Assembly (NCBI GenBank): GCA_026874595.1
Contig: CM049307.1
Span: 79,398,643-79,462,642, forward strand
Source of the DNA: Sipunculus nudus
Taxonomy: Eukaryota > Annelida > Sipuncula > Golfingiida > Sipunculidae
Direction: 5' to 3'
DNA: 64,000 nucleotides
Positions 1 through 39,100 of this stretch are shown here, in pieces (positions within the stretch are counted from its first letter, which is position 1; the number at the start of each line of letters is the position of its first letter). Made by a program: the position numbers and the translations under genes. The notes beneath the pieces were generated by a model. It ran no database searches and was not told the DNA's origin. It was given only the letters and a program-made list of their open reading frames with translations.

Positions 1-92
1 TTTTTCTTCAACAGATGCAAGAGATCATCTGTAAGAATACATAATTTTAGTAATATTGTTATAATATGTATACAATAAATGCAACAATTTAC

Positions 93-270
93 CCTGCTGG
101 ACTTTTTCTTCAATATTCTCCTCTATGATTTGCTCAAGCTGATGTTTGTACACATTGTACAACTTGCATCTGTATCTTGCTCGTGACTCTATGTTTGGTA
201 AAGCCTTCAGTAGTTTCGCCATCTTTCCTCGGACCTTGAAACTGTGTTGCATGTATGTCTCCCCAATAAG
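93..270 (-). CDS. SAM gene, sixth coding exon (gene continues past the left edge)
   Basis: Acceptor TGCATTTTAG, donor CAGG|GTAAAT (phase 1); 59 codons plus one base. The product begins LIGETYMQHSFKVRGKMAKL and ends in a charged helix (HQLEQIIEENIEEKVQQ). The phase-1 donor means at least one more exon lies beyond position 1. Confidence 0.75.
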
Positions 271-3200
271 CTAAAATGCAGAAATGAGTGAAATAAAAAA
301 AAATTCAATTAGTGACAGATGACCGACAATAACCCATTGCTATAGCTAAGCATAACAGATAGTCAGCTGAGCTAAAAATCAGAAAGAAAAGAAAGGACCT
401 TTGGGTCACCAAGCTCTGCTGAAGTTGTATATATAAAGTTCTTAACTACTGTTACCTGCAGTATTTATTGTCAGCTGAGTTATAAATATATATATTATAT
501 ACATGATGACAGAATAGGAAATCCTATAAACTGTTCTACTTTAAAATTCTATTTACTGTTTTAATATGTCAAAATTATAGCAAATTTTAGGACACAGTAC
601 TATTTTACTATGTGTGGCACAATGTAAAGTAATCATTACAACTTCTTTATAAATTTAAACTTACCATTTTAGAAAATATATCCAATTGCAAATTCATGGG
701 ATAAGAGATACTGGATTATGAATGCTTTCATACAAAAAACAAATTAAGTTTCATGATTCCTTTTAAAATCATGTAGGTATAACTAGTACTGGTGTTGTTT
801 GCATTGAGGGATGTGTTATACCAATAATTTCACTGTTTCGCATATTTTTGTTGGTATAGGCTGTTAAATCATGGCTTGAGATAATATTAAATACAAAATA
901 AAGTCACATTCCTTGGAACTTTTAAACAAATATATTAAAATATATAAATATCATTAGTTTTTTTTCCATCCAATGACAGCTCAGGTTTGACTGAAAAAAA
1001 GGTGCAAAATATACATATTTATGACAAAATAATGCTATCTATATAATCAGTGCATAAATATCAGCCACTGAAACTAATAAAAGTAAGTTCCATCATCTAT
1101 GACTGAAAATAGCCAAAAGTAATTTCAGGTCTGTAGCCTGAACGGTTTAAATTTGTGCCATATAAGGCTGTTAACAGACTTCCAGATCAATGGACAGACA
1201 TAGCTAAGAAGACTTACAGTCAGCTGAGCTACAAAATACCAAAATAGAAAACTTTATGTATGCATTTTAAAAAAAGATGCACACTGTGGCTACACACTGT
1301 ACATTGTCCTTTTCCTTTACACTGTTTGTAGTTAGCCGCTTGTTTTTACGTAGTGTACATCAGTTTCTGTAACATTATATGTGATAAAAAGAAATTTAAT
1401 ACAAAAGGTGGCATCATTTTCATGTGAATATATAAGAATACAGAGTGGGGTACTTACATATGGCCTTAATCGCAGAACAGGGAACTCCTCAAGGACCTCA
1501 GATATAGTATGGCCACTATATACCAATTTTTTCCGGTAGCTTTTCGTTTTTTCCATTTTTTCATTAATAATCTGGACATCCATGTTTTGCTTTTTGGCCT
1601 CCTTCTGTAAAGTTTCCATGTGTTTTCGAATTGATATCTCATCTTCTGCTACTTCTTCTACATTGATTTCATCAGTGACCTAAGTGTAAGACATGACAAA
1701 TAAATAAAAACAAGTGAACTATAGGTCATGACACTCAGCTGATGAGCACAACCTGCCAGTGTCATAATATTGAAATTTAATATTTTTTACAATTGATTAG
1801 ACTAATTTTGCTCAAATAGATAGACAGCTTGGATATATGTCATTATTTGTGCCTAGTTAAACAGCTGGGCAGAAAATGGCAAAAGATCATTTACTACGGC
1901 AGAATGACTGAAAATCAGCTGAACTAAATTGATATAGGGGCACCACACATCAAATAAAATGATTGCTATTAATTCAATAAATCTTCTGCAGACAATTTAA
2001 CATTAATTTGGCTGAATTCATACTCATTTAATTCCCCTTCCCAAAAGGAATTAATTTCAATGATATGAAAGCATAAGTGTCAACATTGTTTCACATCTGT
2101 AGGAAAAAAGTAAAACCAACATGAAAACAAACATTCCTGGATTTTCCAAGATACTTCCCTGATAAATTTTCAGAATTCCAGGATAATTATTTTGACTTTA
2201 ATCCACATTAAAAATAACCCATAGTGGATCATCAGGTGGACACGCCTTTCTGACATGAAACAAAAACTAACAGATTGCAACTTTCTCCTCTCTGGTTCAA
2301 TAAAATTCCCTGTCTTTTCCCTGATCTGAGGCCGAGTTCTAAAACTCCCAGAGTTTCCCTGACTGCAAAGTGGGAAAATAATTTCCCAGTTTTCCCTGTT
2401 CTCCAGGCTGACTGGGAAACCTGACTTGGGTTTCTTTAACAGATAGATTGTGCTCTTTTTATGAATGTCCAAAACATTGTAAGGTCAGGCCTCACAGACA
2501 AAGGTTCAGCACTTCAGCTCAAATGACTTACTCACCTGAGCTGAAAAACAATAAACTATTAATTTCATGGGTCTGTAACCAGCATATTTTAAGGATAATC
2601 TTCCAGATTCCACTCTTTATATGTAGCTGTAATTTACTTTGATATGCAATAAGCCCAGGAAGCATGCAGCTTTAAAGCTCACCTCCAGCTGTTGCCGCTT
2701 CTCCAATCTTTGTTCATCAGTTTCTTCTGTTGAAGCTCTTTTCCTGCCTGACACTCCTGGCCGTCCGTATTTTTTTCGCATCTGGAGCACAGCACCCTCA
2801 TTTGTCAGTGGCTGCCTCTCCTTCTTGAACTTTCTCCTTAATGCCTCTCTCCAAACAGACTAAAAAATATACAAAAAAATAATAATTGTTTTTTTTTTCT
2901 ATATATATAAAATGTCATAACATTTAAGCAGCCCAGCTGAAAGATCACAGATGGAACACTGGCACAATGCTTGAAAATCAGATCCAATCATCCAAGACAG
3001 TCAAATAATGCATAAGGATAAGTCAAATTTATTAATACTCATCTGACTGGATAACAAGAATGACTTACTAGGTAAAGTAACCACATTGATTGCTGATTTG
3101 TAGAAAATATTACAGAAATACTTGGCAAGTTTTTGGCAAGATACTACTTGCCCAGTGAGCAGTTTTTTCAAGCCCCATGGAAGTCTACAGCAAGAGCTTT

Positions 3201-3625
3201 AAGAACATTTCTTTTAAGGAAGAACCACTGAATGTATGATTGTTTTTTACTCTTCAGGCAATGAAACACTGAACCATAAAACTTCTGTTATATTGTTCGA
3301 ATTAAATATTATACACAACAGTTTGTGTATAGGAACTTACTATGTCACCAGGTAACCAATTGTACTTCATTAGTAAAGTTGAGCACACATTCCCATAGCC
3401 ACGTCTGCTTGGAAACCTGAATTTATTAAATGCACGATAAATTATTTACAGAACATATGTACACTATTAAATTAACAAAAGAATGATCCATGTGAATCAA
3501 TTTTAAAAGAAGGGACCCTTGGTTCATGGAGCTCTGCTGAATTTGAGTCTTAATTTTATAAATGTTATCAAAAAGGACAAAATCACAGTTTTCGGTCTTG
3601 CTTGCCTAAGTTGGTTCAAAGACTG

Positions 3626-3701
<76 letters not shown>

Positions 3702-6700
3702 ACTATATCAGATAAATGTTTCAATGATAAAATATAAAGTGCTGAGTTTAAACTTCTTTTAATCAGAAATAAACAATAATATAATATTTGTTAAAAAAAA
3801 TAAATAAAAAATTTTTTATGAAAAACTTATTTTTCTTAGATAAGTGGGCAAGTCAGCTAAATAACATGAAAAAGTATTATTGCTTATAACTAAATTTCTA
3901 ATATACAATCAAAGCATAACAAAATCTGTTATTGTCATTTATAATATTATTAATTAATAATTTAAGTAACAATTAACACATGATATAGCTGGCAATAACA
4001 TGGGGGGGGGGGGGGGGGGACCTGCTTTCTCGGCTTTCTGGATTAATCTTCTAGGTTTCTCAGATTGATCTAACGAGTCTTAGTTTTCTTTTGTCAATCC
4101 CTATAATGACCTGCAAGGTATATCCCTGCCACTGAAATGATTTATAAGATGCTTTAATAGATGATAATACAACAGCTGTGTTCTATTTCTATACACATAT
4201 TCACATATTCAAATATGATTTTAATATAAACCACATGAACTTATCTATTTTCACATTGCAAATTATCTTTGACTGGAAAACAAAGACAAAAGAAAGAGAT
4301 CTCTCAGTGGAAAACAATAAATTCAAATTTTACTATCAGCTTTCCTTACTATAACCACTTATACCAGTCATAGCTTTGGTAGTAGATCATATGTACCTCT
4401 AAGAGCATTCTAGCTTAGGTCTAGCATTAAAAGCATAGGTCCATTGGTTATCATTTATGCCAGTCTAACGGATGGACCAACAGCCAGACAGATGTCCCAT
4501 GTTTGGTCATTGCTATAGGTCAGCTGAATTTAGTCAATTGAGCTTAGAATAAATTAATACAAAAAACATATAATGCACTTATCCTGAAGTCATGAAAATG
4601 AAAATTAAGGCAATAACAAATGATCCAGTTATTTTACATTTTTCATATGCAGTGCAGAAGTTAGCTAAAGCCTAGAATACAGGTAGTCAACAAGTGACTA
4701 CGTGTATCCGCTGAAATCAGAGTGGAACGGGTGAAGTGAGGCATGGATTGAGTGGCATGGGGAAATAGAGTGAGGTTTGTTGCATATTAGCATGGATGTC
4801 TGCAGCTGAAATGTGTATGTAGGTTGCGCCACCTACCACAAAATCTAGAAAACTGTCAATGTTGTATACATATGCAAAAAGTCAAACCACTGCCGAGATA
4901 TGAGTGATTTTATCCCATGGCAGACAAACAGACGGACGCTGTGCAAAAATGGTTGCAGGTGGCCCCACCAGTTTTGCCTATGATAAAGAGCTATGTGAGA
5001 TCTATACACATGCATTTTTTTTTTACCAATCATTCAAAAGGTTCCCGAGTTATCCAGTCCTGAGATATAAGCTTGGATGTCTGCAGCGTAAACGTGAATG
5101 TAGGTGGCCTCACCTGTCATAAAAACAAGAAAACTATCCAGGATGTATACACATGCAAATTTTCAGGTGGATAAGTCCAACCATTGCAGAGACATGAGTG
5201 ATTTTATCCCAAGGCAGATGAACAGATGGACCCTGTGCAAAAATGGTTGCAGGTGGCGCCACCATTAATTATGTATGTTATAAAGCTATCCAAGGGCTAC
5301 ATTTTTGCAAATTCTTTTTCCTGATCAGTCAAATAGTTCCCGAGATATGTGTCAAAACAGACGCACAGATGGACACAGAGTGCAGAGGAAAGGTCAGAGG
5401 TCAAGACAAAATTGGGGCGCAGCAGTTCACATGTGACCCTAAGATAATCCCAGGTTTCGTAAAAATTCCGCCCAGCGTTTACGGAGGAGTTCTCCGGACA
5501 CCTACACGGCGGCCTCGGTGGTGAGCTGAAAACATTGTATCCGCAAAACTCTGTTTTGGCGGATACAATTACATATGCTGAACAAAAACTGATTTAAATA
5601 AGTGATGGAAGAATTTCTTGGACTTTGATAAATTTTAAATTCACCTCCTCTAGGGAAGTCACATGCATTTTAGTTTTTCTATCAAAACATTTATACTACT
5701 GAAGCAGTTGTTCAGAATATACTTGCAATTTTATAAATTTGCACATAAGTAAAATGTATTCACATACCATACATTTTTCACAACAATGCTGTCAAACAGC
5801 ATATTAATCAGCATCCCTTTAAGATTTCTGCCTGGCAAAAACTCTTTCTCTCTCTTTTCCAACAAAGCTTGCTGAAGTACTGGAGGAAATTTCGGTAGGC
5901 AGTAATCCTGCAGATCTGCAGCACAAGCACTTGTGGCTCCTTCAAGCTGACCTGGCGACTGCACTTCTTCAGGAGTTGCAGGCTCGCCTTCACTTTGGGC
6001 TTCAAGTTTCTTTTTCGCTTGGTTGAACATAACCCTAAGCTTCATTGTTGGGAAAAGCTCAGCCACCATGTTATCATTCAGGCCAAGTAACGTTTGCCCA
6101 TCAATTTCTTCATCTGTATAAAAAAAAAAACACACAAACCAGGCTTCTATATGGGAGTTTGTGTTTTAATATTACTGAAATCATCTAATAAGTTAATTTT
6201 GTGAATCATTCAATGTCAAAACAACATCCATTATTTGTTACAAAATTTTGACAAGAAATAATAAAAACTAGAATACGGGTAGTCTTGTTGACTGTGTATT
6301 CGCCAAAATCAGAGTGCTAGCTGTTGACAGATTTTAGACAGATAAACCAACCACTGCTGAGATATGAGTGATTTTATCCTAGAGCAGACAAACAGAAGAA
6401 AGATGTAAAAAAAATGGTTGCATGTGGCGCCACCAATTTGGTGTATGATAAAGAGCTATGTGAAATCTATACACATGCAAAATTTCAGGTGGATAAGTCA
6501 AACCACTGCAGAGACCAGTGATTCTAACCCAAGGCAGATGGACAGATGGACACTTGGCAAAAATGGTTGCAAATGGGCCACCATTTTTGTGTATGCTGTT
6601 AAGTTATGCTACATTTGTGCAAATATTTTAGTCTGATTAGTCAAACGAGTCCAGTCCACAGATATGTGTTAATGTGTCAGAACTGACACACAGAAGGACG

Positions 6701-9614
6701 CACTACAGAGAGGAAAATTCAGAGGTCAACGCAAAATATTTTTGCACCATGTACCAGTGATAAATCTGTTCAGTGGTATCAGAGTTCTATTCTGGAAACA
6801 AAAGCAGCGGCAGGGGAACCTTGTAAAAAACATTGTATCCACAAAACTTTGTTTTAGCAGATAAAATTATATAAATTACATGTTCAAGGAGGATATCTTG
6901 TAAACATGCATATAATACAGTACCTTCTCACCTGGTACACCCCATCTAATTAAAGTTTAAGTGAGTGGGTAATTTGCATCCTTAAAACATGATGTAACCT
7001 TATAAATTGGAAATGCAAAGGCCTGATCCCCAACAGTATAGAAACGGTGTTGACGAGTGTCAAGAAGTTTGTTTGGCTCAACTGCATACCACTCAGTGTC
7101 TGCTTCTACCTGATAGCAATGCAAGTAATATATGTATCTTTTGCTAAGGTAACATCTACCACACAAGAACCACCTGCCTCTCATATTCACAATATATTTA
7201 ATAATTAAAAAAATAGGAATTTGTTCCTCTTCATGGACATCAAGGACATAGCATCCAGACACTTTAAAGGGAGCTCCATCAAGTGTTACTGAATGAACAA
7301 CCTCTACCTCTTCTTTGGTTAGCATTTCCCCATCATATTTGCTGTTCAAAGTTGTTACAAGGGGGGCAGGTAATGTCTGCAACTGAATATGTCTGGACTT
7401 TGACTGTAAGGTAACAGGGGCCGGATAGAAGAATTTACCAGCAAGCTCACATGCTTGTCTCATTTGGTGCCTCTCAGACAGCGTGTATGTAATATTTTTA
7501 AATGTACGCAAAGATGAGGATACCCTTTTGAAATACTGATGTTTTGCCTCAAACCGCATTGTCCAAAAGTTTCTAAGAGGCCCAAACCTTAGCATGAGTT
7601 GTGGATAGTGTACCAAAAAGTGGTGCTTTGGGGTGAAGGAATCCTCCCCAAAAACCTCCTTAAATTTATACAAGTACCCCTCTATAGCCACCTGTATATA
7701 GGGAATCGTTCTTTGTTCTACAACCGGACTGAAAACATAATCCATGCATTCTCTTAGGCACAGGTAAACGTCCCATTCTGGTTCATTTTCCACTCCAAAT
7801 GAACCTATAATCTGAGGGAGGTTGAGAAAGATTTCCCACTTCTGAGCTGCTGTTCCAACAAGTTTGTTTTTCCCTTTCAGAGCTACCTCTTTTATTTCAT
7901 TAGGTTTGTCTTTGGCTGGGATTTTAAGCTGCCTCAGGGAAACATTTAATTCATCAAAGGTAAATTTCTTCTTTTCATAGAGGCGCTTTAGAACCAATGT
8001 TACAGTGGCAGGTATAACCCCCTCCAGACAATCATGCATGATGTCTGGTGGAAACGAATCAGGAACACTGAAGTAATCTAAATGGCTCAGAGCACATTTG
8101 TGTTTTATTCCATATATCTTGCTATTGTCTGGGTTAGAAAGAACAGCTTCAAGCTGGTACCTGTATACTTGGTTGTCTCGAAGAACAAACTCCTTATCAC
8201 TAAATGCCTGGCTAATTTGGCTATAGTCAGCTGTGCAAAAGCGACAAAAACGTCCTGCATTGAAATGGGTTTGAAACCCAGCAAGACTATTAGATGACAG
8301 ATTATCTCCACAAATGGTTGCCAGTCTTGCCCTTATAGTTCTCTCTTTGCCATTCACCATGACATTTACTCCATTTTCAAGAGTTTTTAAATCTGACAAC
8401 AGTGGCTGCATGACTTTGTCGTAATCAGGATCATGCTGTTTTACATGAACATGTCTAACCAGCAAACACAAATTAATGGAATGCTGCAAGCTTCTATAAA
8501 TTGGAGGCAAACTACCAACTACAAAGTAAACTGCAGTTATTTTGTATTTACCTCTTTTTGCACCTATCGGGTTGCATAATTCAAATTCGTCCATGTAAAA
8601 ATGGAGTGGAATGACCTTTGAGTTGAGAAAAGAATTTTCCCTCCAGGCTTTCCCATCAAAATAATCAAACAATGTGTTTGGGTTGTGAATTCTTTGGGGT
8701 TCCAAAATGGCTTGTTGTGCATCTGAATTGTTTAAAATAGATTTTAATACATCAGTGACTGGTACATAATGAAAGACAGTAGTTTGGATGGAAGGGCATA
8801 GTGAATATGCCTGCGGTTTAACTACTGAATAACTGCGTCTGATGTAGTTATTGAATTTGTATTTTGTTGTGAGGCTTTCCCATACATTCAGATCAACAAA
8901 CTGGGTATTAAGTAGGTCATGTAATTCTTTGTTCTCATTGAAATTCACTTCTACATGGTTTAACGCCTGTTTTATCAATTTTTGAAGTACATCATTGGTG
9001 AAAGTTATAAGGAATCTAATTTCCTCCACTAAACTCACCTGTACAGTACCAGTGAGCAAGTGCTTTTCTCTCAACTTAAGCATGAAAGATGCAAAATGTG
9101 TCAAAAAATCAGCCTGGAAGGACTCTCGAGCTGTAGAGTCTGAATCTTGATCATCACTGATTTGTTCCCCATCCTCATCTGAACAATAAAATTCATTATC
9201 TGAATCACTGAAACTGGTATTGGATGTGTCATGATAGTTGGTATTTTGAAGCCTGGTTTGGTGTTTTCTGTAATAATGCCGTTTATAAGCAGACACATTT
9301 TTGAAAGAATTTTGACAATTTCCAATCCCACATATTATAAAGAAGTGGGCTTCACTTTCATGAAACAAATGCAAGTGCTGACAGTATTTTAAGAATGAAA
9401 ATTTAAAGATATCACAGTATGGACACTTGAATTTTTCAAGTGGCATTGCTTTCCCAATTGAGCAACATAAGGGTCAGTTCCCCTGAAATTAAAACAACAT
9501 ACCTTGAAATTTTTTAGAGTACTCCCCAATCCCATTCTCTTCAAGCCAAACACCTACTGTCTCTGTGGTCCAGGTTGTGATATTACTATAAGTGTTCATG
9601 GCTCCTTATCTTTC
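93..9614 (-). CDS. SAM-domain protein, SAMD3-like family (partial at C-terminus; 6 exons seen)
   Basis: Joining exons 9503-9614, 5768-6113, 3341-3416, 2683-2859, 1458-1679 and 93-270 (minus strand) gives one open frame of about 367 aa. Every junction has GT-AG ends and matching phase (1, 2, 0, 0, 0, then phase 1 off the window). Coding starts at the ATG at 9599. The SAM domain spans roughly residues 9-75: its first half has TVGVWLEENGIGEYSKKFQ, its second DEEIDGQTLLGLND. A proline/glutamate-rich linker follows, then a basic coiled region (VWREALRRKFKKERQ, GRPGVSGRKRAS) and a C-terminal part with SGHTISEVLEEFPVLRL. Exon order and these motifs recall the multicopy 'SAM domain-containing protein 3-like' genes of fish and invertebrates. 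SAM domains usually mediate oligomerisation, and the basic middle suggests nucleic-acid contact. Intron 1 contains a same-strand transposase-like ORF, so this may be the accessory protein of a transposon rather than a host gene. Confidence 0.8.
1458..1679 (-). CDS. SAM gene, fifth coding exon
   Basis: Acceptor TTACACTTAG, donor TAT|GTAAGT; 74 codons in phase 0. It starts with acidic VTDEINVEEVAEDE, continues as a Lys/Glu-rich likely coiled coil (HMETLQKEAKKQNMDVQI), and ends with SGHTISEVLEEFPVLRLRPY. Confidence 0.8.
2683..2859 (-). CDS. SAM gene, fourth coding exon (basic region)
   Basis: Acceptor TATTTTTTAG, donor GAG|GTGAGC; 59 codons, phase 0 to 0. It is rich in Arg and Lys: SVWREALRRKFKKERQPL, then MRKKYGRPGVSGRKRAS, then an acidic-basic stretch (DEQRLEKRQQLE) that could be helical. 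The charge pattern fits DNA or RNA binding; that is inference. Confidence 0.8.
3341..3416 (-). CDS. SAM gene, third coding exon
   Basis: Acceptor AAATTCAG, donor ATA|GTAAGT. The first base completes Trp (NVW) and 25 codons follow, FPSRRGYGNVCSTLLMKYNW onward. An aromatic-Pro-Ser-Arg-Arg-x-Tyr-Gly run like this recurs in the SAMD3-like family. Ends in phase 0. Confidence 0.8.
3629..3694. repeat. (TA)33 microsatellite
   Basis: Uninterrupted alternating TA. An open frame through it is a repeat artefact. Confidence 0.95.
4002..4019. repeat. Poly-G tract (G18)
   Basis: Eighteen consecutive G on the plus strand, in SAM intron 2. Other G/C runs in the window occur near 13131, 20090, 21518, 25939, 46130, 48525, 52166, 53018 and 53660. 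Confidence 0.95.
4672..5570. mobile_element. Helentron-associated-like (HINE-type) non-autonomous element, copy 1
   Basis: It starts CTAGAATACAGGTAGTC, with a subterminal TGTATCCGCTGAAATCAGAG (from 4703). Imperfect tandem units of roughly 150-170 bp follow (phrases 'gcaaaaatggttgcaggtgg' and 'gacatgagtgattttatccc'). It ends in a strong hairpin, ATTGTATCCGC-AAAAC / GTTTTG-GCGGATACAAT (5534-5569), whose arm is the inverse of the 5' motif. Subterminal inverted repeats, a 3' hairpin and a central tandem core are the layout of Helentron-derived HINEs. Lies in SAM intron 2. Confidence 0.5.
5768..6113 (-). CDS. SAM gene, second coding exon (rest of SAM domain plus linker)
   Basis: The acceptor TTTTTTATACAG precedes the exon. 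Its first two bases complete the Asp codon begun in exon 1, giving FQ-DEEIDGQTLLGLND across the junction, a textbook SAM helix arrangement. The rest is an acidic/proline linker followed by FPPVLQQALLEKREKEFLPG. The donor is ATG|GTATGT (phase 2). Confidence 0.85.
6268..6868. mobile_element. HINE-like element, copy 2 (shorter)
   Basis: Same ends as the copy at 4672-5570: CTAGAATACGGGTAGTC at the left, TGTATTCGCCAAAATCAGAG just inside, and the terminal hairpin TTGTATCCACAAAACTTTG / TTTTAGCAGATAAAAT at the right, now decayed. It has fewer internal units. It sits between the transposase-like cassette and SAM exon 2, in SAM intron 1. Confidence 0.5.
6932..9482 (-). CDS. 829-aa transposase-like protein, CACTA/Plavaka-type (CDS 6957-9446), as a cassette exon in SAM intron 1
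   Basis: A single intact ORF runs from ATG at 9446 to TAA at 6957. The N-terminus has two C2H2-like fingers (CPYCDIF..., CGIGNCQNSF...HYYRKH), then an acidic patch (DSDNEFYCSDEDGEQ). The core has FYMDEFELCNPIG (about residue 295), ATICGDNLSSNSLAGF with GRFCRFC, and DIMHDCLEGV. These fit the acidic-residue positions and Cys pair of tnp2/CACTA- and Plavaka-type DDE transposases. HHFLVHYPQLMLRFGPL and FWTMRFEAKHQYFKR resemble the DUF4218 region. An acceptor (TTTTAATTTCAG, ending 9483) precedes the ORF and a donor (CCAG|GTGAGA) lies 25 nt past the stop, so it behaves like an alternative exon of the SAM transcription unit. No frameshift is visible, suggesting recent activity or selection. The family call is from motif memory, not a search. 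Confidence 0.75.
9503..9614 (-). CDS. SAM gene, first coding exon (N-terminal half of SAM domain)
   Basis: The exon is preceded by an acceptor (TTTTGATTTATAG, AG at 9616-9615), so a further 5' UTR exon lies upstream. The ATG at 9599 gives 32 codons plus one base. The frame encodes MNTYSNITTWTTETVGVWLE and then the SAM helix EENGIGEYSKKFQ. The donor is CAAG|GTATGT at 9502. A second acceptor (TTTTAATTTCAG) follows only 20 nt after this donor and leads into the transposase-like cassette. Confidence 0.8.
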
Positions 9615-9900
9615 CTATAAATCAAAATTAAATAAGACACATTGATTGGGTATAAATTCATGTACAAGAATTCTCAGCATCACAAAATAAATATCATGAC
9701 ACTGTGGAGTGAACATTTGGTGACACCATGGGATGTCAAATGTTGTACATACTTTTTTTTAAGTTCATTTTTAAAAGTACACCAGTAACAATAACATGAA
9801 AATGAAAATAAAAGAATGAATATGTCATTTATATGAATATCAAACAAACAGCACAACTTGCAAAGCATTTGGGCCAGTAAATATAACAAAATAAACTTAC

Positions 9901-9960
9901 TAAAGAAGTAGTCATGTCACATGATTTAGAAGTGTAAAAATAAAAGTGAATGTTACGGCC
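9901..9960 (-). other. Candidate shared 5' UTR exon end (splice donor) for SAM/transposase transcripts
   Basis: On the minus strand, CTACTTCTTTA|GTAAGT gives a consensus donor at 9900, upstream of both acceptors (AG at 9616-9615 and 9484-9483). A leader ending here could join either the SAM exon or the transposase cassette. The 5' limit of the exon is unknown; the end given is nominal. Confidence 0.3.
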
Positions 9961-9964
9961 CTTA

Positions 9965-10548
9965 GGCCCCTTTTCCATGCGCGCATTTCTCGCGCTGAAA
10001 AAATCGCTTTGAATCGCTTTACCAATCGCGCGTTTCCGCTGAATCACCCCTACATGTGACGTGTTTTCACAAGGGTTTCCGCGTCCCCAAGACTTTCAGG
10101 CAACATGTTGAGCATGTGACTGTTATGTACAGTTCACTTTATTCATGTAAACATTTAAAATTTCGTTTTATTTTTGCAAGAATGAACAGTTTTATCACGG
10201 TATAGTGTGCTATCTACAGGCCGATAGGGGTGGTATATAGGCTACAGGCTTAAGAGATTATTCACTATCCGTAATAAGATATTTCACACCCCCGCAGCAC
10301 ATATATTTATATGTTTATATAAAATATATATAATCATGCATTAAAGTAGACAAGCAGAACAGCAGTTAAGTATGATTTGTCACCATGCATGATATAGGCC
10401 TATGCATGGGCATCCTCAAGCAGACTGCATTCTCGTTCTTGACCTCCACAAGAAAGCTGGCCCGCGTGCCTTCCCGCGTGCATGGAAGAGGGATACATGA
10501 TTTACACTTGAGCGATTTTTTCAGCGCGCGGAAACCATGATAAATGGG
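9965..10548. repeat. GC-rich inverted-repeat segment with phased AATCGC motifs (transposon end or MITE)
   Basis: CGCGCTGAAAAAATCGCT at 9991-10008 recurs inverted near 10511-10530, and both copies are preceded from outside by a CCATG or CATGG block. On the plus strand AATCGC appears at 10002, 10012 and 10024, spaced about one helical turn, with an inverted GCGATT near 10512. The block lies just upstream of the SAM/transposase unit, where its 5' end and promoter would be. No clean target duplication was found, so it could also be an unrelated MITE. Confidence 0.4.
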
Positions 10549-11618
10549 TATAAATGTATTAATAGTTAACCCCTCACAAGTATAAAGTCAAGACTTTAAA
10601 GGTGTTTGTTAAGTGTATTTAATACACATATCTTTCCAACACTACCCCAGACACATAAATATAAATCTCCCTTCTTTTCTGGTCAAAGTAACACAAACTG
10701 CATTTCTAGGTTAATAATCATGACAACTGCAGCACAACCTGTTACAGGTGGGACAGAAAAAATATTTTATTTTGACCTAGACATCATAATAGGTACAAAA
10801 TCCAAGTTACTTCTTAATGTAAACTCTCTACGGTACCCTTTTGAAATTATTCAGCAGCATATATGTAGCTGATTATTAATGTCTGCATGGTCATAAAATT
10901 AACGGGTTTAACTGTGGACATGTCGCAGCTGGGACAAAATGGCCTATAATTTGCTGTGGATAGAAACATCTTTTCTATTACTCTAGGAATTGATGGATGT
11001 TACTGTCTGCATCATCCGTGTTATTCTTAATAAGTAACTGCCTTACAAACAACCTGATTTTTCTTTCTATAACCTCAGACAATATCATGTACAGATTTAG
11101 AGCAATTGGCCAAATAATGACCTTAATTCAAGTATGTACATTGGAGCGTTATAGGGGAATATTGGATTCGTAGGTCTAAAGGTTTCAAAATGTGCTGTCT
11201 AACAGATTTACAGACGGACGGACAGACAGACAGAAAAGACAGACAGGCAATGGGAGAAGGGGGTGAAGTGCTACCAATGGTATGGTTTGCATCCTTAGCA
11301 TAGTTTACCGGCTAAGGCAGGGTGAAAACCTTGCCATAGGCTAATTAATTAGGGGAGAGGGCTTGTAAGCCAGCCCGCAGCTAATTAATTAATGACAGGC
11401 TGGGGCAGTACTGGGGTAATGTTTGTACAGTGGTGGCACAGGGTACTTCACAATTTAGCAAAAGCATTTAAGTAAATATGTTGCATCCTATAAATCCTAA
11501 TCTTACAAAGGGTTTTTAATCAATGCTAAATGGGCAGTGTCCCTGATCGGTTGATGAACATTCATAATGCATATAAATTACATTTGCATATAGTCAGTTA
11601 CAAAACCCTTGTCGGCAT
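10549..11618. other. Intergenic, no gene recognised
   Basis: AT-rich. It contains a 'gacggacggacagacagacag' type run (11214-11235) and two CTAATTAATTA blocks about 50 bp apart (11340-11390). No coding region is supported. Confidence 0.6.
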
Positions 11619-11628
11619 GTTTTTTAGT

Positions 11629-12675
11629 AGACTGGCCCAGTCAATGAAATGGCTCTTAATTGTTGCCTCTGACAAAGAAACCAAACGTTCTCTCACTGTA
11701 TCGCACGTATAGTGTCGGTATCGCAATCTCTTGGTTACTTCTATAACTAATTACCACTCGCTGACCCTCTTATTTCATCGACTGGTAAACTTGGGCCGTA
11801 CCGGACAGTCAGCGCCATACATCACCGCCTCGCTGAACTAAGGTCTTTCACAGTGAAGTGCAGAGTAATTATAGTGGTCTTTCCCAGAATCTTTTTTTTT
11901 TAAACCAACATGGGTTATCCAGTAACCGCCTATTGTGGGCTTCTAGCTTGCTATTTATATACCCATTTAATCAGTCTTAATATTTTAAGGTCCTCGGCTA
12001 TTTTGAGTACGGCAAGACTTTTTAACACTATAATATAACCCTCAGCCTCAGTGAGTCAGAGTGTCACCGTTTATCAGACCATCGCTTTCCAAGGCAGGTC
12101 GGTTTGAAAATGTATCTCTAGCTCAGCCAATCAGCGCGAGATATTCAGGTTCACATGCGACAAACGCATTCATGTACCGGCTGGCTGAAACAATCAGCGT
12201 GTTGGCAACTTAACAGGGGCAGGGCTTTCAAGCTTGAACACTAACAAATACACCGCACAAAACAGATGTGACAGTGTCTACAATGCACTTTCATCTGGCC
12301 CATGGACCGTAGTGTTGGACAGCAGAGATATATCATAGGACACGAAGGTCCATGTACAGACTTTCTGTAAACATGATTTCAGTGCGAATGTTACAAGTGG
12401 GTTGAGCTGTCTATTGCCATTTTGACCGCTGCTAGCGTCCACATAGCAACGATGCCATTCACAGGAGGCGTGGCAGCCTGAAATGCTAATGTGAGGGAAT
12501 CGTCAGGAGCCTTGTGTCGCCTTAATATTTAAATATCAGGGATTAACCATACGGACTTTACAGGGCTTTAGTGATAAGAGCTGGTACTGAGTTACGACTA
12601 TTGGCACATGGAAAAACGTTTTATTTTAAGCATTTTAGTAGTAAACGTAAATACACTATAGCCCAGGCAGGGCTA
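11629..12675. mobile_element. Non-autonomous DNA transposon, 10-bp TSD (MULE-like), long copy
   Basis: The element begins AGACTGGCCCAGTC and ends GCCCAGGCAGGGCTA. It is flanked by an exact 10-bp duplication GTTTTTTAGT at 11619-11628 and 12676-12685. The same ends with a different 10-bp duplication occur at 59146-59395, which fixes the boundaries. Each end can form a small hairpin (CTGGGCCAG type; AGCCC..GGGCT). No ORF of note lies inside. A 9-11 bp duplication is typical of Mutator-like elements; the superfamily call is inference. Confidence 0.8.
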
Positions 12676-12685
12676 GTTTTTTAGT

Positions 12686-13780
12686 GATAATTATTTTAAG
12701 AATATTCTTTAAATAGGAACAGCTGAATATATAGCTCCAGCAACCTTTGGACAAGAAAGGTTTACACTGCTTTACTTGTATAAAAAATTATCCCGGAAAT
12801 ACATGCAGACACAGGTACTTGGACGGACTATAAATAATAATTATTTCATAAAGGTTTTGGATAGATTTATCATATGTAAATAATATTCAATGTATGAACT
12901 CTAATTATCTGGCATATATCAGGGGCGGAATTTAGAGGGGAGGGGCTCAGGGGGTGCGCGGCCCCCTTTTTTTCGACCTTACCATAAAAACCTGGGAAAA
13001 CTCAAAGTACACCAAGTGTTTAGAACAGTAACAATGTATGTTTTGTTTATAATGCATTTAAGCGACCTCAGGGTGCACGATTACAACCTTAATTTTTAAA
13101 AAATGTGTACACCTGGGCCATTACAACACCCCCCCCCCCCCCCCCCATTCTAAATTCCTTTATCTAACCCTGAATATAAAAATTTCATTTTAATAAAATA
13201 TATAGGAATAAATAATATTAAATCATTCAGGGGCAGGAGAAAGTGTATAAAAAAATTAATAATGTAGTGGATACTGGAAGGGAATCTAAAATGTTTTTAA
13301 TTTTAAATATTTTTAGTCTGTAATGATAGAATAATCCCTGACATTTGGTTTTATAAATAAACAGATAAATAATTAATGGGCAAAAGTGCCAATACCATTA
13401 GTCATTACATAACATAACAATGGACCATATGAAGGCAAACTATAGCTCAGTTGACTTATAGTCAGCTGAGCTAAAAAGAAATATACGAGGAGTTTTAACC
13501 CGCCGAGTCACTGAAAACAAGAAGTTTCACCAGGACCGTTTGAGATAATCAAGGATGTTTCAAGGACAATGACACAGGCTGAACACATTTGACGGGGCCA
13601 TCTTCAGAGTTCAAGTTTCGCCTGTTTAGTTCTCTGATTTTGTGCTGTGGGATAGGCAATTGACAATGGGTGTATTCAAAAATAGTAATAGGGGCATTAT
13701 TATCATTTTAATACAACATACCTGTGCCATCGGTGTGAAGAATTCCTCGCTTTTTGCTTCATGTGTCGTAAAAAGGACGC
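12686..13780. other. Intergenic, AT-rich; no gene recognised
   Basis: Contains a GGGGCGGAATTTAGA block (12922 on), akin to the GGGCGGATCC repeat family elsewhere in the window, and a poly-C run near 13131-13146. Nothing coding is supported. Confidence 0.6.
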
Positions 13781-13790
13781 TGCTTCTCTG

Positions 13791-13823
13791 TCACGTGACG
13801 CTACACGTGATCGCGTGACGTCA
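13791..13823. promoter_or_regulatory. Clustered E-box and CRE sites in a CpG-rich patch
   Basis: TCACGTGA (13791-13798), CACGTG (13804-13809) and a perfect palindromic CRE TGACGTCA (13816-13823) lie within 33 bp, in an unusually CpG-rich block for this AT-rich region. It is about 1 kb upstream of the transporter-like fragment. Promoter function is inference. Confidence 0.4.
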
Positions 13824-13973
13824 ACACTGGGTGCGGTTACTATATTTAGACGCGGGACCTCGTTAATGCTTCATGGTCTGAACTACAGATGGCGCTCCGT
13901 TTGGACCTTGAAATCGTGCACGCAAAGATATTTTTTACAAAAGCCATTGTGAAATTAATGTCACTGTATTTTG

Positions 13974-13976
<3 letters not shown>

Positions 13977-14021
<45 letters not shown>

Positions 14022-14039
14022 ATATATATATATATATAT
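13977..14039. repeat. (TA)n microsatellite with one TC interruption
   Basis: Alternating TA over 63 bp with one interruption near 14020. Confidence 0.95.
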
Positions 14040-14292
14040 TAACAGCATTTTACCGTTAATTCGTACCATTTACCACTGTAATAAATACTATTAGCTGATT
14101 TCTAAAACTGTGACTTAAGTAAATTTATTTGTTCAGTCTATTCAAGCTTTATAAAATTTATCTCATTAGTGTTAATTTAGTAATAATGTATTATCACAAA
14201 TTTTACTGAATTTGATGAAAATTTGTATATAAACTGGATATTACAATGATCGATTGGTCTTAATTCTGATATATTCTAGGTTTATATTTAGA

Positions 14293-14293
<1 letters not shown>

Positions 14294-14362
<69 letters not shown>
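14294..14362. repeat. (TA)n microsatellite
   Basis: Uninterrupted TA alternation, about 34 units. Confidence 0.95.
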
Positions 14363-14364
<2 letters not shown>

Positions 14365-14880
14365 CGTGAAAAAGGTTTTCTCGAAAACCCTTTGCGATAG
14401 AAACCTTTTGTAAAAGGGTTCCTTGACCATATAGGTTCCTGTTGTTACAAGAAACCCTTTTCCGTAACCAAAACCATTTCAAAACCTTTAAGAAACCCTT
14501 TATTTTTTACAGTGTACTGTTGACTTGACCTCCCCTCCCCACTGCTCCGGGCCACCTTGTAACTAGTGGTCGATACGTCTTGGGGTCGATTTGTCCTGCT
14601 CAGCCCATTGCTGCGGGTCCCCGCTAAGCAGTTGCCCCTTTATCGTTAATTGAACATTAAGAATAACCATATTGATTTATATCTGAAAATATTCATTCAC
14701 AAACAAACTAAAGTCTCCCGATTGTCTCTTACTAAACGGCTATGGAATTTTGTATGTATATAATCACTTCTGACATATCACATTTGCAGTTCTTTAACAA
14801 TGTATAAGATTAAATGATCTTTCTTCATACATACAATTAACAATCAACCGGCTGACTTTAGCTTCTTTAATGAAGGAAAC

Positions 14881-15338
14881 ATGTCGGTGCATGATGAAGG
14901 TTTTGATGGGATATCTTCGGACGCTGAAGACATCGAGCCAGGATACTCATCTTGTGAACCCATGTCAGTGTGTGACAAAAAAGTGGTTACCTCCGCCAGT
15001 CTCACCCAAGGATCAATCGAAAAAGAAGATCCAGTGAAGTAAACGCAAAAAATAATGCAACTACAGAAATTGTGAATGCAAGAAATAACATGTACAGTTC
15101 AGATTATGAATCCCAAGAGAACGCGAAGACATTGGCTCACAAAGATAATAAACCATCAGATGACAGCTTGGAAACATGGTTAAGCTACCTTGTTCTTGCC
15201 GTATGTTTTGCAACCTTTGCTGTGTCGGACGGGGTACTTTTTCTGTACGGAATTATATATCAAGACCTAAAGTCAAGTTTCGACACTGACAGTTCCAGTC
15301 TGGCCCTGCCGTCTTCCGTACAAACCTCGGTGTTATGA
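14881..15338 (+). pseudogene. Monocarboxylate-transporter-like (SLC16/MFS) N-terminal fragment
   Basis: An open frame ending at 15338 encodes a polar N-terminus, then LSYLVLAVCFATFAVSDGVL, FLYGIIYQDLKSSF and DSSSLALPSSVQTSVL. This has the pattern of MCT transmembrane helix 1 (a hydrophobic stretch with SDG, then LYG and a following SS..S loop). The ATG at 14881 opens an acidic leader (MSVHDEGFDGISSDAEDIEP) in another frame that stops at 15042. The downstream frame is closed by a stop just before the A6 run near 14970, so a one-frame shift at that run could join the two. The downstream frame alone can start at ATG 15090. Only a weak donor (TCG|GTGTTA) exists near the end and no further MCT exons were found before 17.3 kb. 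It is a broken gene fragment, or a first exon whose partners lie elsewhere. Confidence 0.45.
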
Positions 15339-15825
15339 TCCAGCAATGGGGATGATTACACATCCAGGACCCGCAGGTGCGGTAGACATCGGGCCTGGGT
15401 GACAACTGGATACTAAATAAAAATGATAGGAAGCGAGTGCTACCGCCCTTTCAAGTAGTAACAAACCGTAATGGAAACTTTGCAGATGTACATATACTTA
15501 GTTTAAGAATTAGATAAGTCAGCATTAAAAAAATATAAAAAAAGGAATAAAACCGGATGTTTGCACGTTATACCAGAGCCCACTCATGAATGGAAGGTGT
15601 ATATAGAATGACGAGTTCTTTCTTTTAGAGTGATGGGGCAGCAATAGAGAACTCTACGCAGCAGTAAAAAAATGTCTTTCTGTGCGTTTAGAAGGACCAA
15701 AAAGACACCAGCACTCTGATATACAATTTTAAAGTGATATCAGGATGACAGGTTCAACATCAAAAGAACAAATCATTTACTTGATAAAAATTCTGATTAG
15801 AATGTTCCATATGAATGGAAAAGTA

Positions 15826-15826
<1 letters not shown>

Positions 15827-15873
<47 letters not shown>
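15827..15873. repeat. (TA)n microsatellite
   Basis: Alternating TA, about 23 units. Confidence 0.95.
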
Positions 15874-15875
<2 letters not shown>

Positions 15876-15903
15876 TCCTAAGTAGAATCCTGTGCTTGCA
15901 CAC

Positions 15904-16319
15904 TGTTAGAAAAAGGGTATTTTTTTATAGGTATGAAAAGGGTTTTTTAAGTGTCCAAATACAAACACCCTTCTTAAGGTATTTTGAAATACCTTTTATA
16001 AAATAACTTATTAAAGGTATTTCAAAAATAAAATGCAGATTCATATCTGTAATTTCTGCAATTATCGGAATATGTCCCAAAAACTGACGAGAGAGTCTCA
16101 CACTTAGTGCCCGCTGATATTTTCCTCTCTCCCGGCTCCAAACACAGCCCCTATTTATAGCCTTATATAGCCGAAGTCCAGAAACTTCCATTCCGGAACC
16201 TTCAAGACTACACCGAACTTTTAGAACACAATGAACGTGCTGTGTTTTTAATCTCTGTGAGCAAGCCAGATATAAAAAAGTGCGGTTCCCATAGCAACGC
16301 ACAGGGTTTGCGCCTAACA
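15904..16319 (-). mobile_element. Candidate solo LTR, distantly like the Gmr1-like LTR at 38 kb
   Basis: The segment is bounded by TGTTAG and CTAACA. Read on the minus strand it has a TATAAATAGGGGC box followed by GAGCCGGGAGAGAGG. The LTR at 38041-38810 carries, in the same order, 'tatttata', 'ctctcccctctcggctc', a 'cgctgtgtttct' block and 'ccatggcaacg'; here the matching phrases are 'gtgctgtgttttta' and 'cccatagcaacg'. No target duplication was seen. Confidence 0.4.
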
Positions 16320-36199: not shown

Positions 36200-39100
36200 A
36201 ATATCACATTTTTAAAGGGGCATAATCAAGGGCAATATTTAGTTTTTTTCACACTATCAGTTCTGTTTTGCTTTTTCCAAGCAAAACCGCCCAGCACACA
36301 GTCTCAGTACTTCCCATATGGCTGTTTTAACACCTTTGTTAACACAATGGTTTTGCTTGCAGTCCACTTGCATCTCTATACCAAAACAAGGCCGCGTGAC
36401 CGGAAGTCAGATTTTGCTCATGCTATACATATTGCAAGCAAGGACTAGTCCATACACATACATAAACATTCATGGTTTCTTATATATCTCTGCGGGTTGG
36501 ACATTACGATCCATTGGCCGAATGTAGAGCCTTCCGCAATAGATCTGTACGATATATCCAGAGGCCTCAGTTGAAATGACCCGCATTTGTGAGCCTGTGT
36601 ATCAGGTCGCTGAGCCACCGCAACATACGATGGTTCAGTCAGCTGGAACATGTATCACATTTTTGGGCCAAGACAGTCAGGGCAAGGAGTTTATAGTCCT
36701 ATAAACTCCTTGGTCATGGCATCTCCTGATTGGCAGGTGTTTTGGCCACGCGCTGTGTTTATATTAACGCTTTGGTTCGAGCCGTTCCACTTTTTTAACA
36801 TTCGTGTACAAGAGTAAGCCATCGCATAAAGGGCAATATTTTGGCCTGGACCAATTTATTTAAAAGAGAAGACCTTATTTTTCTTATTAATTCAACATGA
36901 TATATAGATGATTAGGCCCTTTAAAATAATAAACTACCTAAAATTTCGACATCCGACCTGTGACATCTTGGTGTTTGTGCGACGCAAAATGAGAGCCTCC
37001 AAGAGCGGTTTCGAGAAACATGGAGAATAGCATCGGTCAGGGTAAAATAATGGGGCGGGGATGGGAGATGAAAGTACTCAAAGTCAAATCGAAAATCTAT
37101 TTTTGTGGCAAGGGAACGTGCATCGGCAAAGATTAATATAACGCTTTAAACTTAAATTAATAATACTATTCAAACCTCGACCTTATCATCAAATTGAATT
37201 AGGATTCACTAAGAAATTCTTTTGTTTGTGTTGTTCTGGCTACTTTTTTCTTCACCAGTGCTGGTATCAGTCCCTCTTGCATATACATTTTTTTCTTTTA
37301 CTCTTTATTTGCATTATTTTTAATTTATTAAAATCAACACTAACATTATACGTTAGAGAACTGCGAAATATACATTGATTTCTATTTTTAATCAGGGTAA
37401 GAAAATTGAATACATTTTAAAAAATCTGGCGACGGGTCCTTTGTACAACCACATGAGAAGCTACTGGGCCAACAACAAGGACAGGAACTTGTTTCCCGCC
37501 ACAAGAAAGGAAGGATTGGAAAGAGTCCGACAGGAAAATTACGCATTCATTGTACAGTCTTCGTCTGCTAACATTGAGAAGGGGAAACGCCCCTGCGATC
37601 TGACAACTATTGGTGAGATCATGCACCCTGGGAGCTACGCCATGGCGGTATCGAAAAAGTTTCAGGTCAGGAAATTTCTTTCAAAGGACACATCATCACT
37701 AAACTGCATTTAATATAGCCTTGAATGTCAGATAATTAATAGACGTTTTCCAAGCGCATGCGCATTGCACGTTTAAAGCTTTTTAAGAATTCGGATAAGG
37801 TCAGAGAATCTTGAGAAATTTGTTAAATAAGAATGAATACAAGCAACAGCAACAACTGGAACTTTGAATTATAATTTTAATGTAAATTTTCTTCATTTGA
37901 TAAATAATCATTTGTCAAAAAATGGAACCAGTTATTCCAGTGGCGTCAATTTATCTTCCAGGGTTGGGTAAGGATGACTTGCAGACACACACCCACGTAT
38001 CTGTATGACACTTAATCACCTTTCATATAATATAACGGGTTGTTACGGAACCTAATAACAATAGATCACGTAGTCGTGACGAGCACACATTTTGTCATGC
38101 AGGTAAAAAAATCAGATTCTGTAACACTAGGCAGCGTGAAATGTCTAGGGTAATGTATAAAGAAATCAGTGGCTTTTTTTGTTAACGAATAATTCTAATT
38201 TATTCTTAAAAAAACTAACATCACAATACACTAAATCAATACAATTACACAGTATAACAAATGTACAACAGCAAATCAATACAATTACACAATATAATAA
38301 ATAAAGTGTACAGTACCTGGATACCACCACTGTCACAGCGACAACAAGTCCTTTAAAACCAATAATCCACGTAAAAAGTTCAGATAGTCCAAAGTAAAGC
38401 TCTTGTAATAATCTCGAAAGTAAACTGGAGACAGGCCGCAATAAATCTGCATAGAGTTCGTAGAATCCCTCACACTACTGCATATAATGGATAGGCCTAA
38501 AACTGACTCACACTCTTCCGTGCCGCTGGAATATTTCTCTCTCCCCTCTCGGCTCTAAACAGAGCCCCATATTTATAACTTGTCACCCCAAGCCGAGAAC
38601 TTTCTATTTCACGAACAATCAAAAAGAACCCAAGAATACATAATACACACGCCAAAAGAACATACTAGAACAAAGAACGCTGTGTTTCTACACGTCAGAC
38701 CCCACACGTGGGCCGAGCCAGCCCGCGCGTCTCCCATGGCAACGGACAATGCTAGCGCTACACAGACACATGTGAGACTGCTGCACACAATAAAATAGAC
38801 ATCTGTAACACTCCCCCTCCTGTAAGAAAAAAAAAGAAAGTTTTCTAAAAAAACTTTCTTTTTGCGATCACAATCACTTTATTTTTACAATATTTCATCA
38901 ATCATCTTATTAACAATATTACATAAACATCTCGTTACAACAGTTCATTATCATCTCGATAAGCAATCAGCAATTACATTGTCTTTCCCTTTAATGTGTC
39001 TGATTTCAAGATTGTAATCCTGTAAAAACAAACTCCATCTCAACAATCTTTGATTTTTACACTTCAACTTGTCCATGAATGTGAGGGGATTGTGATCACT

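Follow-up and report, generated by a model that had tools for sequence, protein, structure and literature searches.

A SAM-domain gene with a RAG1-like transposase nested in its first intron, in a probable 21-kb CACTA-type transposon of Sipunculus nudus

The window analysed here is a 64,000-nucleotide stretch of the 1.43-Gb genome of Sipunculus nudus (G000:C2:79398643-79462642), and our subject is a pair of genes on its minus strand: a gene for a SAM-domain protein and, nested in its first intron, an intact transposase open reading frame (ORF). The SAM gene model was built by hand on GT/AG splice sites, from genomic sequence alone. Its first exon (9503..9614, 9614 being the first base past the acceptor) holds the first half of the SAM domain; the ATG lies at 9599, and the 97 coding nucleotides end in phase 1 at 9503, directly followed by the donor. 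Exon 2 (5768..6113) holds the second half of the domain. The two are joined at GT/AG junctions to give a peptide reading ...KKFQ joined to DEEIDG..., and the Pfam SAM_1 match crosses the splice join (residues 9-48 of the joined peptide, E 2e-8). Exons 3 to 6 follow at 3341..3416, 2683..2859, 1458..1679 and 93..270, and the stop codon is in exon 7, beyond the window at about G000:C2:79396269-79396413. The seven exons join in phase without a frame break and encode a protein of 413 amino acids with SAM_1 at its N-terminus (E 7.9e-8 in the full model). Intron 1, of 3,389 nt, contains a stop-free ORF of 829 codons (P0001, 6957..9446), whose ATG lies 56 nt past the SAM donor and whose product is predicted to carry two C2H2 fingers, a RAG1-like DDE core and a BAH-like C-terminus. 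An earlier note on this DNA had described SAM halves joined in phase over a 3.4-kb intron with an intact ORF on the same strand, at this same distance from the donor, and the exon phase, splice dinucleotides and Pfam match bear it out. The parts it delimited were right, but it stopped short of exons 3-6 (3416-93) and of the 5' end of the element at 14514. This nested layout is real and beyond chance, since it is backed by full-length database matches, two near-identical genomic copies and frame-intact exon joins. We also noted related repeat blocks (63-92% alike by piece) at 4784-5575 in SAM intron 2 and at 6343-6873 in intron 1, beside the transposase ORF.

Two further places in the genome encode the same transposase at about 100%, which makes three copies, each on a contig of its own. 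When these loci (84, 50 and 60 kb) were compared with one another, one common block of about 21 kb emerged, 99.48-99.50% identical, and besides this unit there was no block of at least 300 bases above 85%. The unit measures 20,991 bp in the window copy and 20,942 and 20,950 bp in the others. Its ends, CACTGTAAAAAATAAAGG... and ...CTTTACTTTTTACAGTG, form CACTG...CAGTG inverted repeats with sharp breakpoints, and TA stands on both sides of the unit in all three copies, at three different flanks. The window covers the part of this minus-strand element from 1 to 14514, the 3' end lying outside at G000:C2:79392166. Its 5' terminal inverted repeat, CACTGTAAAAAATAAAGG, occupies 14497..14514 (the 3' partner CACTGTAAAAAGTAAAGG is outside the window), and the 5' copy of the TA target duplication occupies 14515..14516, with TA at the 3' side too. 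Both genes are enclosed: some 4.9 kb separate the SAM ATG from the 5' end, and roughly 4.1 kb remain between the last modelled exon and the 3' end. The earlier note had reasoned that the 5' end must lie upstream of the SAM exon, making the SAM gene part of the transposon, and had suggested whole-locus alignment for common ends and target duplications; that alignment places the 5' end at 14514, and what the terminal repeats and duplications enclose is the SAM gene plus the ORF rather than the ORF by itself. A scan of window positions 1-16000 for inverted repeats, whose 25 longest of 716 pairs were AT-rich runs, did not show these ends; the 3' end lies outside the window.

The common unit bears directly on two rival explanations. 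Taken singly, the window shows merely an ORF in an intron, as would be seen if the first intron of a host SAM gene had received an unrelated transposon and the two were independent. Three copies on three contigs, however, hold the SAM exons and the ORF as one unit that ends well outside the modelled gene on both sides, and the pairing recurs in the genome on the same strand only (see below). Since the ends are common to the copies, insertion into a host gene is refuted for the window copy, and we consider it very improbable overall. Three long near-identical copies might also have arisen by segmental duplication of host DNA containing both genes, with no transposon involved. Here the breakpoints fall exactly at the inverted CACTG repeats, with 2-bp duplications and three different flanks, and a related family offers empty sites; the termini and duplications refute this explanation, to which we assign practically no weight.

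For the relatives of the element we refer to the window family as family A, to other transposase families of the same genome as D, G and H, and to a locus on C16 as I. Family D encodes a transposase of 823 amino acids that is 28% identical to that of the window (alignment A3). Its unit is 12,113 bp in two compared copies (99.25% alike), flanked by TA/TA and CA/CA; a third copy has only the first 6 kb in common. The terminal inverted repeats begin with CACTG in both families (CACTGTAAAAA... in A, CACTGAAAA... in D). One D copy is inserted in a dispersed repeat, and its joined flanks, with one CA, match many unoccupied relatives over the junction at 75-81%. In the four empty relatives that were fetched the junction is continuous and has a single dinucleotide (CA in three, TA in one), which identifies the 2 bp as a genuine target duplication for family D. 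Over the two families, all five copies examined have a 2-bp target duplication (TA in four, CA in one). The partner gene of family D lies downstream of the transposase, not around it. Its first exon encodes another domain in place of SAM; kinship with the window SAM gene is seen in its body exons (BLASTP, 26% over 137 columns, E 3e-9). The D N-terminal domain, which looked PB1-like, gave a sub-threshold Pfam match to DUF5537 and no match below E 0.48 in a PDB search.

The 5' end of the window element also occurs at G000:C2:66857703, with SAM exons 3-7 about 1 kb further on (locus 66850736-66857703). Among the matches listed there is none to SAM exons 1-2 or to the transposase at this locus, which therefore looks like, and from its sequence probably is, a deletion derivative of the window transposon. 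The same 5' end is matched at four more places at 70-72%. Short repeats (GGTTTC, GGGTTT and their complements) occupy the 5' subterminal region at 14275..14514. Per terminal 240 bp, family A has 6 at the 5' end and 11 at the other, against 0.24 inside the element, and family D has 2 and 6 against 0.08; as the motifs were picked by eye from the ends themselves, this enrichment is descriptive only. Maize TnpA binds such subterminal sites.

Several of the 36 database matches to the transposase, which include proteins from Hydra and tick, show 39-52% identity over at least 97% of the ORF. Residues D286, D381, C401, C404, H609, H613 and E633 are invariant in 20 of 20 aligned transposases, E633 being kept at 90% or more in alignment A3, and C(2)C and H(3-4)H motifs lie between the second D and the E. 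We propose D286, D381 and E633 as the catalytic triad. The predicted structure has a RAG1-type catalytic core fold. Residues 676-807 are predicted to be BAH-like, near BAH1 of DNMT1, a histone-reading fold, and such a tail might steer integration via chromatin marks. Pfam Transposase_21 (tnp2) matches the window transposase at 24.7 bits (E 1.6e-5), the curated cut-off being 28.6 bits. Of the ten transposases in alignment A3, three match Pfam Plavaka (PF18759) and three Transposase_21 at E 0.01, and the window's own protein gave no Plavaka match at that threshold. A fusion of the SAM exon to the transposase was looked for by eye in the N-terminal 90 residues of the query and of the 36 matches, and no SAM-like start was seen. 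Among pattern stretches, 0 of 42 in viral_contigs and 0 of 99 in genome_contigs were confirmed as relatives.

To place the pair in its genome, three accessory proteins and three transposases were used as queries, and after merging we obtained 77 accessory and 68 transposase loci. Only the best candidates are scored in the search lists, so the pairing counts are lower bounds. The H and I loci were entered as lacking an accessory, for loci outside A, D, G and H comparison was limited to the three query transposases, and 31 weak matches to SAM exon 6 only, one to exon 7, four to exon 3 and further exons of listed loci were left out before the count. A same-strand accessory match was found within 25 kb at 36 or more of the 68 transposase loci, and within 6 kb at 32 or more, while among the matches listed not a single transposase locus had an opposite-strand accessory within 25 kb. 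In 1,000 trials of random placement, the number of paired loci averaged 0.137 and never exceeded 2. A first version of the count had given 34 of 62 transposase loci. The pairing recurs elsewhere in the genome, at 36 or more of 68 loci on the same strand against 0.14 expected. Because copies are not independent, we split the count: families A, D and G are paired at 22 of 22 loci, and the remaining loci at 14 of 46 (10 within 6 kb). Among these 14, six have an A- or D-type match within 6 kb (C1:74432653, C3:51922226, C4:40122187, C6:26223095, C6:27336408 and C11:58639433), two on C5 stand beside a D-type gene 8-9 kb off, C2:35705623 and C10:46224542 are G-like with matches on both sides, C2:57702642 and C15:10172498 are short transposase fragments abutting a G-type half-exon, and two on C15 have matches only 13 and 17 kb off. 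A 75% D-like fragment at C6:30992936 is counted among the unpaired loci. Seen from the other side, a transposase stands beside at least 35 of the 77 accessory loci, namely 25 of 33 with two or more listed matches and 10 of 44 with one.

The window family has its transposase nested, same-strand, in an intron of the second gene, and this layout recurs in part. The family G transposase (811 amino acids) is directly preceded by a half-exon that resembles the second half of the window SAM domain (E 4e-4), so that in G the layout is indicated by a weakly SAM-like half-exon. Family H (834 amino acids) has, by eye only, SAM-like half-exons before the transposase and body-like exons after it, and locus I has body-like exons downstream, also by eye, the stretch before its transposase being masked. 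Family D does not have this layout, its second gene being downstream.

Some further relatives of the SAM gene stand apart from these pairs. A dispersed family of 31 fragments is similar to SAM exon 6 alone, at 36-43% identity, and most members contain in-frame stops (C17:41639001 and C4:63737456 are examples); none of the 31 lies within 25 kb of a listed transposase. No transposase is listed for a multi-exon relative at G000:C11:66480217-66499945 (54-63% identity), which could be a gene of the host or the remnant of an element. In two others, L035 (G000:C12:68593701-68595300) and L036 (G000:C4:40120051-40121150), a single open stretch holds much of the body, and in L035 a TPKTPQQT-type repeat tract comes before it. 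Elsewhere in the window, minus-strand ORFs at 38951-39418 and 49710-50336 appear by eye to be reverse-transcriptase-like fragments of retroelements.

The splice layout suggests how the two proteins might be produced. A candidate 3' splice acceptor AG lies at 9483..9484 on the minus strand (TTGTTTTAATTTCAG; acceptor-like TTTTAATTTCAG), with its end 20 nt past the SAM exon, and another 36 nt lead to the transposase ATG. The family G half-exon donor, the acceptor-like TTATCCTTTCAG and the transposase ATG all fall within about 30 nt, and in family H the transposase ATG sits inside the donor-like GTAAAATG. The SAM and transposase ATGs of the window share a frame, but a TAA intervenes. As judged from sequence, this arrangement would fit either exon skipping to the second acceptor or intron retention with a short upstream frame. 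The transposase, as a single exon in the first SAM intron, probably shares the upstream promoter through alternative splicing or intron retention.

We read the locus as a copy of a 21-kb, recently mobile CACTA/EnSpm (RAG1-like) transposon with two nested genes, whose SAM protein would be a TnpA-like partner in the end complex, and we put the probability of this at about 0.76. The observations behind it are the unit with its ends and duplications, the empty sites of a related family, the phase-consistent gene model, the recurrent pairing and the predicted fold. With a difference of about 0.5% among the three copies, the element probably moved recently. Under this reading the RAG1-like DDE core of the transposase would cut and join at a 2-bp target, and the SAM protein would multimerise, help to gather the subterminal repeats of both ends and be needed for transposition, working with the transposase as TnpA does with TnpD in maize En/Spm. 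We propose the multimerising role because SHANK and some other SAM domains polymerise. Only the SAM domain of the accessory has solved-structure relatives by sequence (Liprin-beta-1, SHANK2/3, SARM1 and a few others, E 3.5e-4 to 0.064). For the SAM protein itself no database relative was returned at E 0.001 (sequence) or 0.01 (three-row alignment) in a search that needs shared 5-residue words.

A number of results weigh against this reading, and they bear also on its alternatives. Among the matches listed, 32 of the 68 transposase loci lack an accessory, and 42 of the 77 accessory loci lack a transposase within 25 kb (8 of 33 multi-match and 34 of 44 single-match loci), the latter also being what insertion into host genes would leave. 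The earlier note had regarded it as contrary evidence if most SAMD3-like loci lacked the ORF and sat in conserved synteny, and on the first of these points the outcome is mixed: multi-match loci are mostly paired (25 of 33), whereas overall most are unpaired in these lists. Kinship with G and H is tenuous. The likeness of the G half-exon to its window counterpart is weak, the G downstream body matches the window body only at E 0.003 (BLAST) and the D body not significantly (E 1.6), Pfam detects no SAM in the G and H half-exons, and the H half-exon gave no BLAST alignment with the window SAM, so the kinship of H and I is a judgement by eye. The three copies show 1 substitution and 1 indel in 1,239 columns of the SAM gene, 5 and 1 in 2,487 of the transposase and 47 and 24 in 17,173 others, fewer in coding sequence but not significantly so (Fisher p 0.28 for substitutions in both genes, 0.24 for SAM with indels), and purifying selection was accordingly rejected as a conclusion from this comparison. 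In one copy (C) 2 nt are deleted from SAM exon 2, and against two diverged relatives this exon gives dN/dS of 0.46 and 0.48 (NG86) or 0.54 and 0.88 (YN00).

Such ratios, just moderately below 1, would suit a captured host SAM gene carried as passive cargo without a role in transposition, much as Pack-CACTA elements carry captured host genes, and the different N-terminal domain of the D relative and the weak kinship of the G accessory point the same way. Yet related accessories (A and D, E 3e-9) accompany transposases that are only 28% identical, and A- or D-type matches lie within 6 kb on the same strand at six transposase loci outside A and D, which makes passive carriage improbable. Also against the main reading, the helical core of a distant accessory, modelled from two rows (pLDDT 80.8; fragment alignments A5 and A6 looked misaligned and were kept out of folding), showed no clear match to a DNA-binding fold. 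A BEN- or MADF-like fold, suspected at first, was dropped as the two-row model gave no clear match. The SAM protein might instead be an element-encoded regulator (a repressor, anti-silencing factor or chromatin-targeting protein) outside the end complex. Its closest solved SAM relatives by sequence include the scaffold proteins Liprin-beta-1 and SHANK, the probable derivative copy keeps SAM exons 3-7 with no listed match for exons 1-2 or the transposase, and maize TnpA also acts on promoter methylation (PMC1636069). The subterminal repeats, on the other hand, suggest end-binding proteins, though the zinc fingers of the transposase could do that. We regard a purely regulatory role as unlikely, but as an alternative to be taken seriously beside the end-complex partner.

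The recurrence of the pair suggests that a family of supposed host SAM genes could belong to transposons. More broadly, and at slightly under even odds, RAG1-related animal transposons may have carried a SAMD3-type accessory since early animal evolution, as RAG1 carries RAG2, in which case many SAMD3-like genes, perhaps including vertebrate SAMD3, would be copies of that transposon gene, whether still alive, dead or domesticated. Should other animals show the pairing too, a group of SAM-domain genes would need re-annotation as belonging to transposons, and one that survives in single copy could be suspected of domestication. SAMD3 and SAMD3-like proteins of animals have an N-terminal SAM domain followed by a longer conserved body. 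The window protein also has an N-terminal SAM domain, but the label SAMD3-like is provisional, as no database sequence matched at the thresholds used to confirm the kinship. Among the open-licence papers listed, judged by titles and the starts of abstracts, we found no link of SAMD3 or a SAM domain to CACTA, EnSpm or Plavaka elements.

With RAG1/RAG2, ProtoRAG and Transib the element has in common a predicted RAG1-type core fold, but its partner is a SAM-gene protein and not RAG2, and its target duplication is 2 bp, unlike the 5 bp of RAG/Transib. With its predicted RAG1-like core and BAH-like tail, the transposase may join RAG1/RAG2 as the second example of a RAG-type enzyme that is linked to chromatin reading as well as to a partner protein. 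Maize En/Spm has CAC termini with repeats near its ends, and its tnpD ORFs lie within tnpA intron 1. The En/Spm-like layout claimed in the earlier note holds for the window family, where transposase coding sits in a same-strand intron of the second gene. The differences are a SAM-domain accessory (maize TnpA is not known to have a SAM domain), a single-exon transposase and a 2-bp target duplication in place of the 3 bp of plant elements. In En/Spm two proteins, both essential for transposition, derive from one alternatively spliced transcription unit (PMC1636069). Elements of the CMCT clade (Plavaka/EnSpm/ESTA) have a DDE transposase with C2C and H3-4H motifs, mostly CA..TG ends and 2-5 bp duplications (PMC12730594), and the window element resembles them in its CACTG terminal inverted repeats, 2-bp duplication, DDE core with C(2)C and H(3-4)H, and subterminal repeats. 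The ends of PlavakaA and PlavakaB are TGT..ACA and CATCA..TGATG (PMC12730594); those of the window element, CACTG..CAGTG, differ from both. SmTRC1 of Schistosoma has transcripts spliced past the transposase ORF that code for a second protein, and 2-bp direct repeats at 7 of 14 copies (PMC1636069); the window element is alike in its 2-bp direct repeats and in having a second protein besides the transposase. The SmTRC1 authors report second proteins without detectable similarity to those of other animal or fungal elements (PMC1636069), and the present locus gives an animal second protein a domain, a gene structure and a testable role. Alternatively spliced second products were already known from En/Spm and SmTRC1; what would be new here is a SAM-domain second gene in an animal CACTA-type element.
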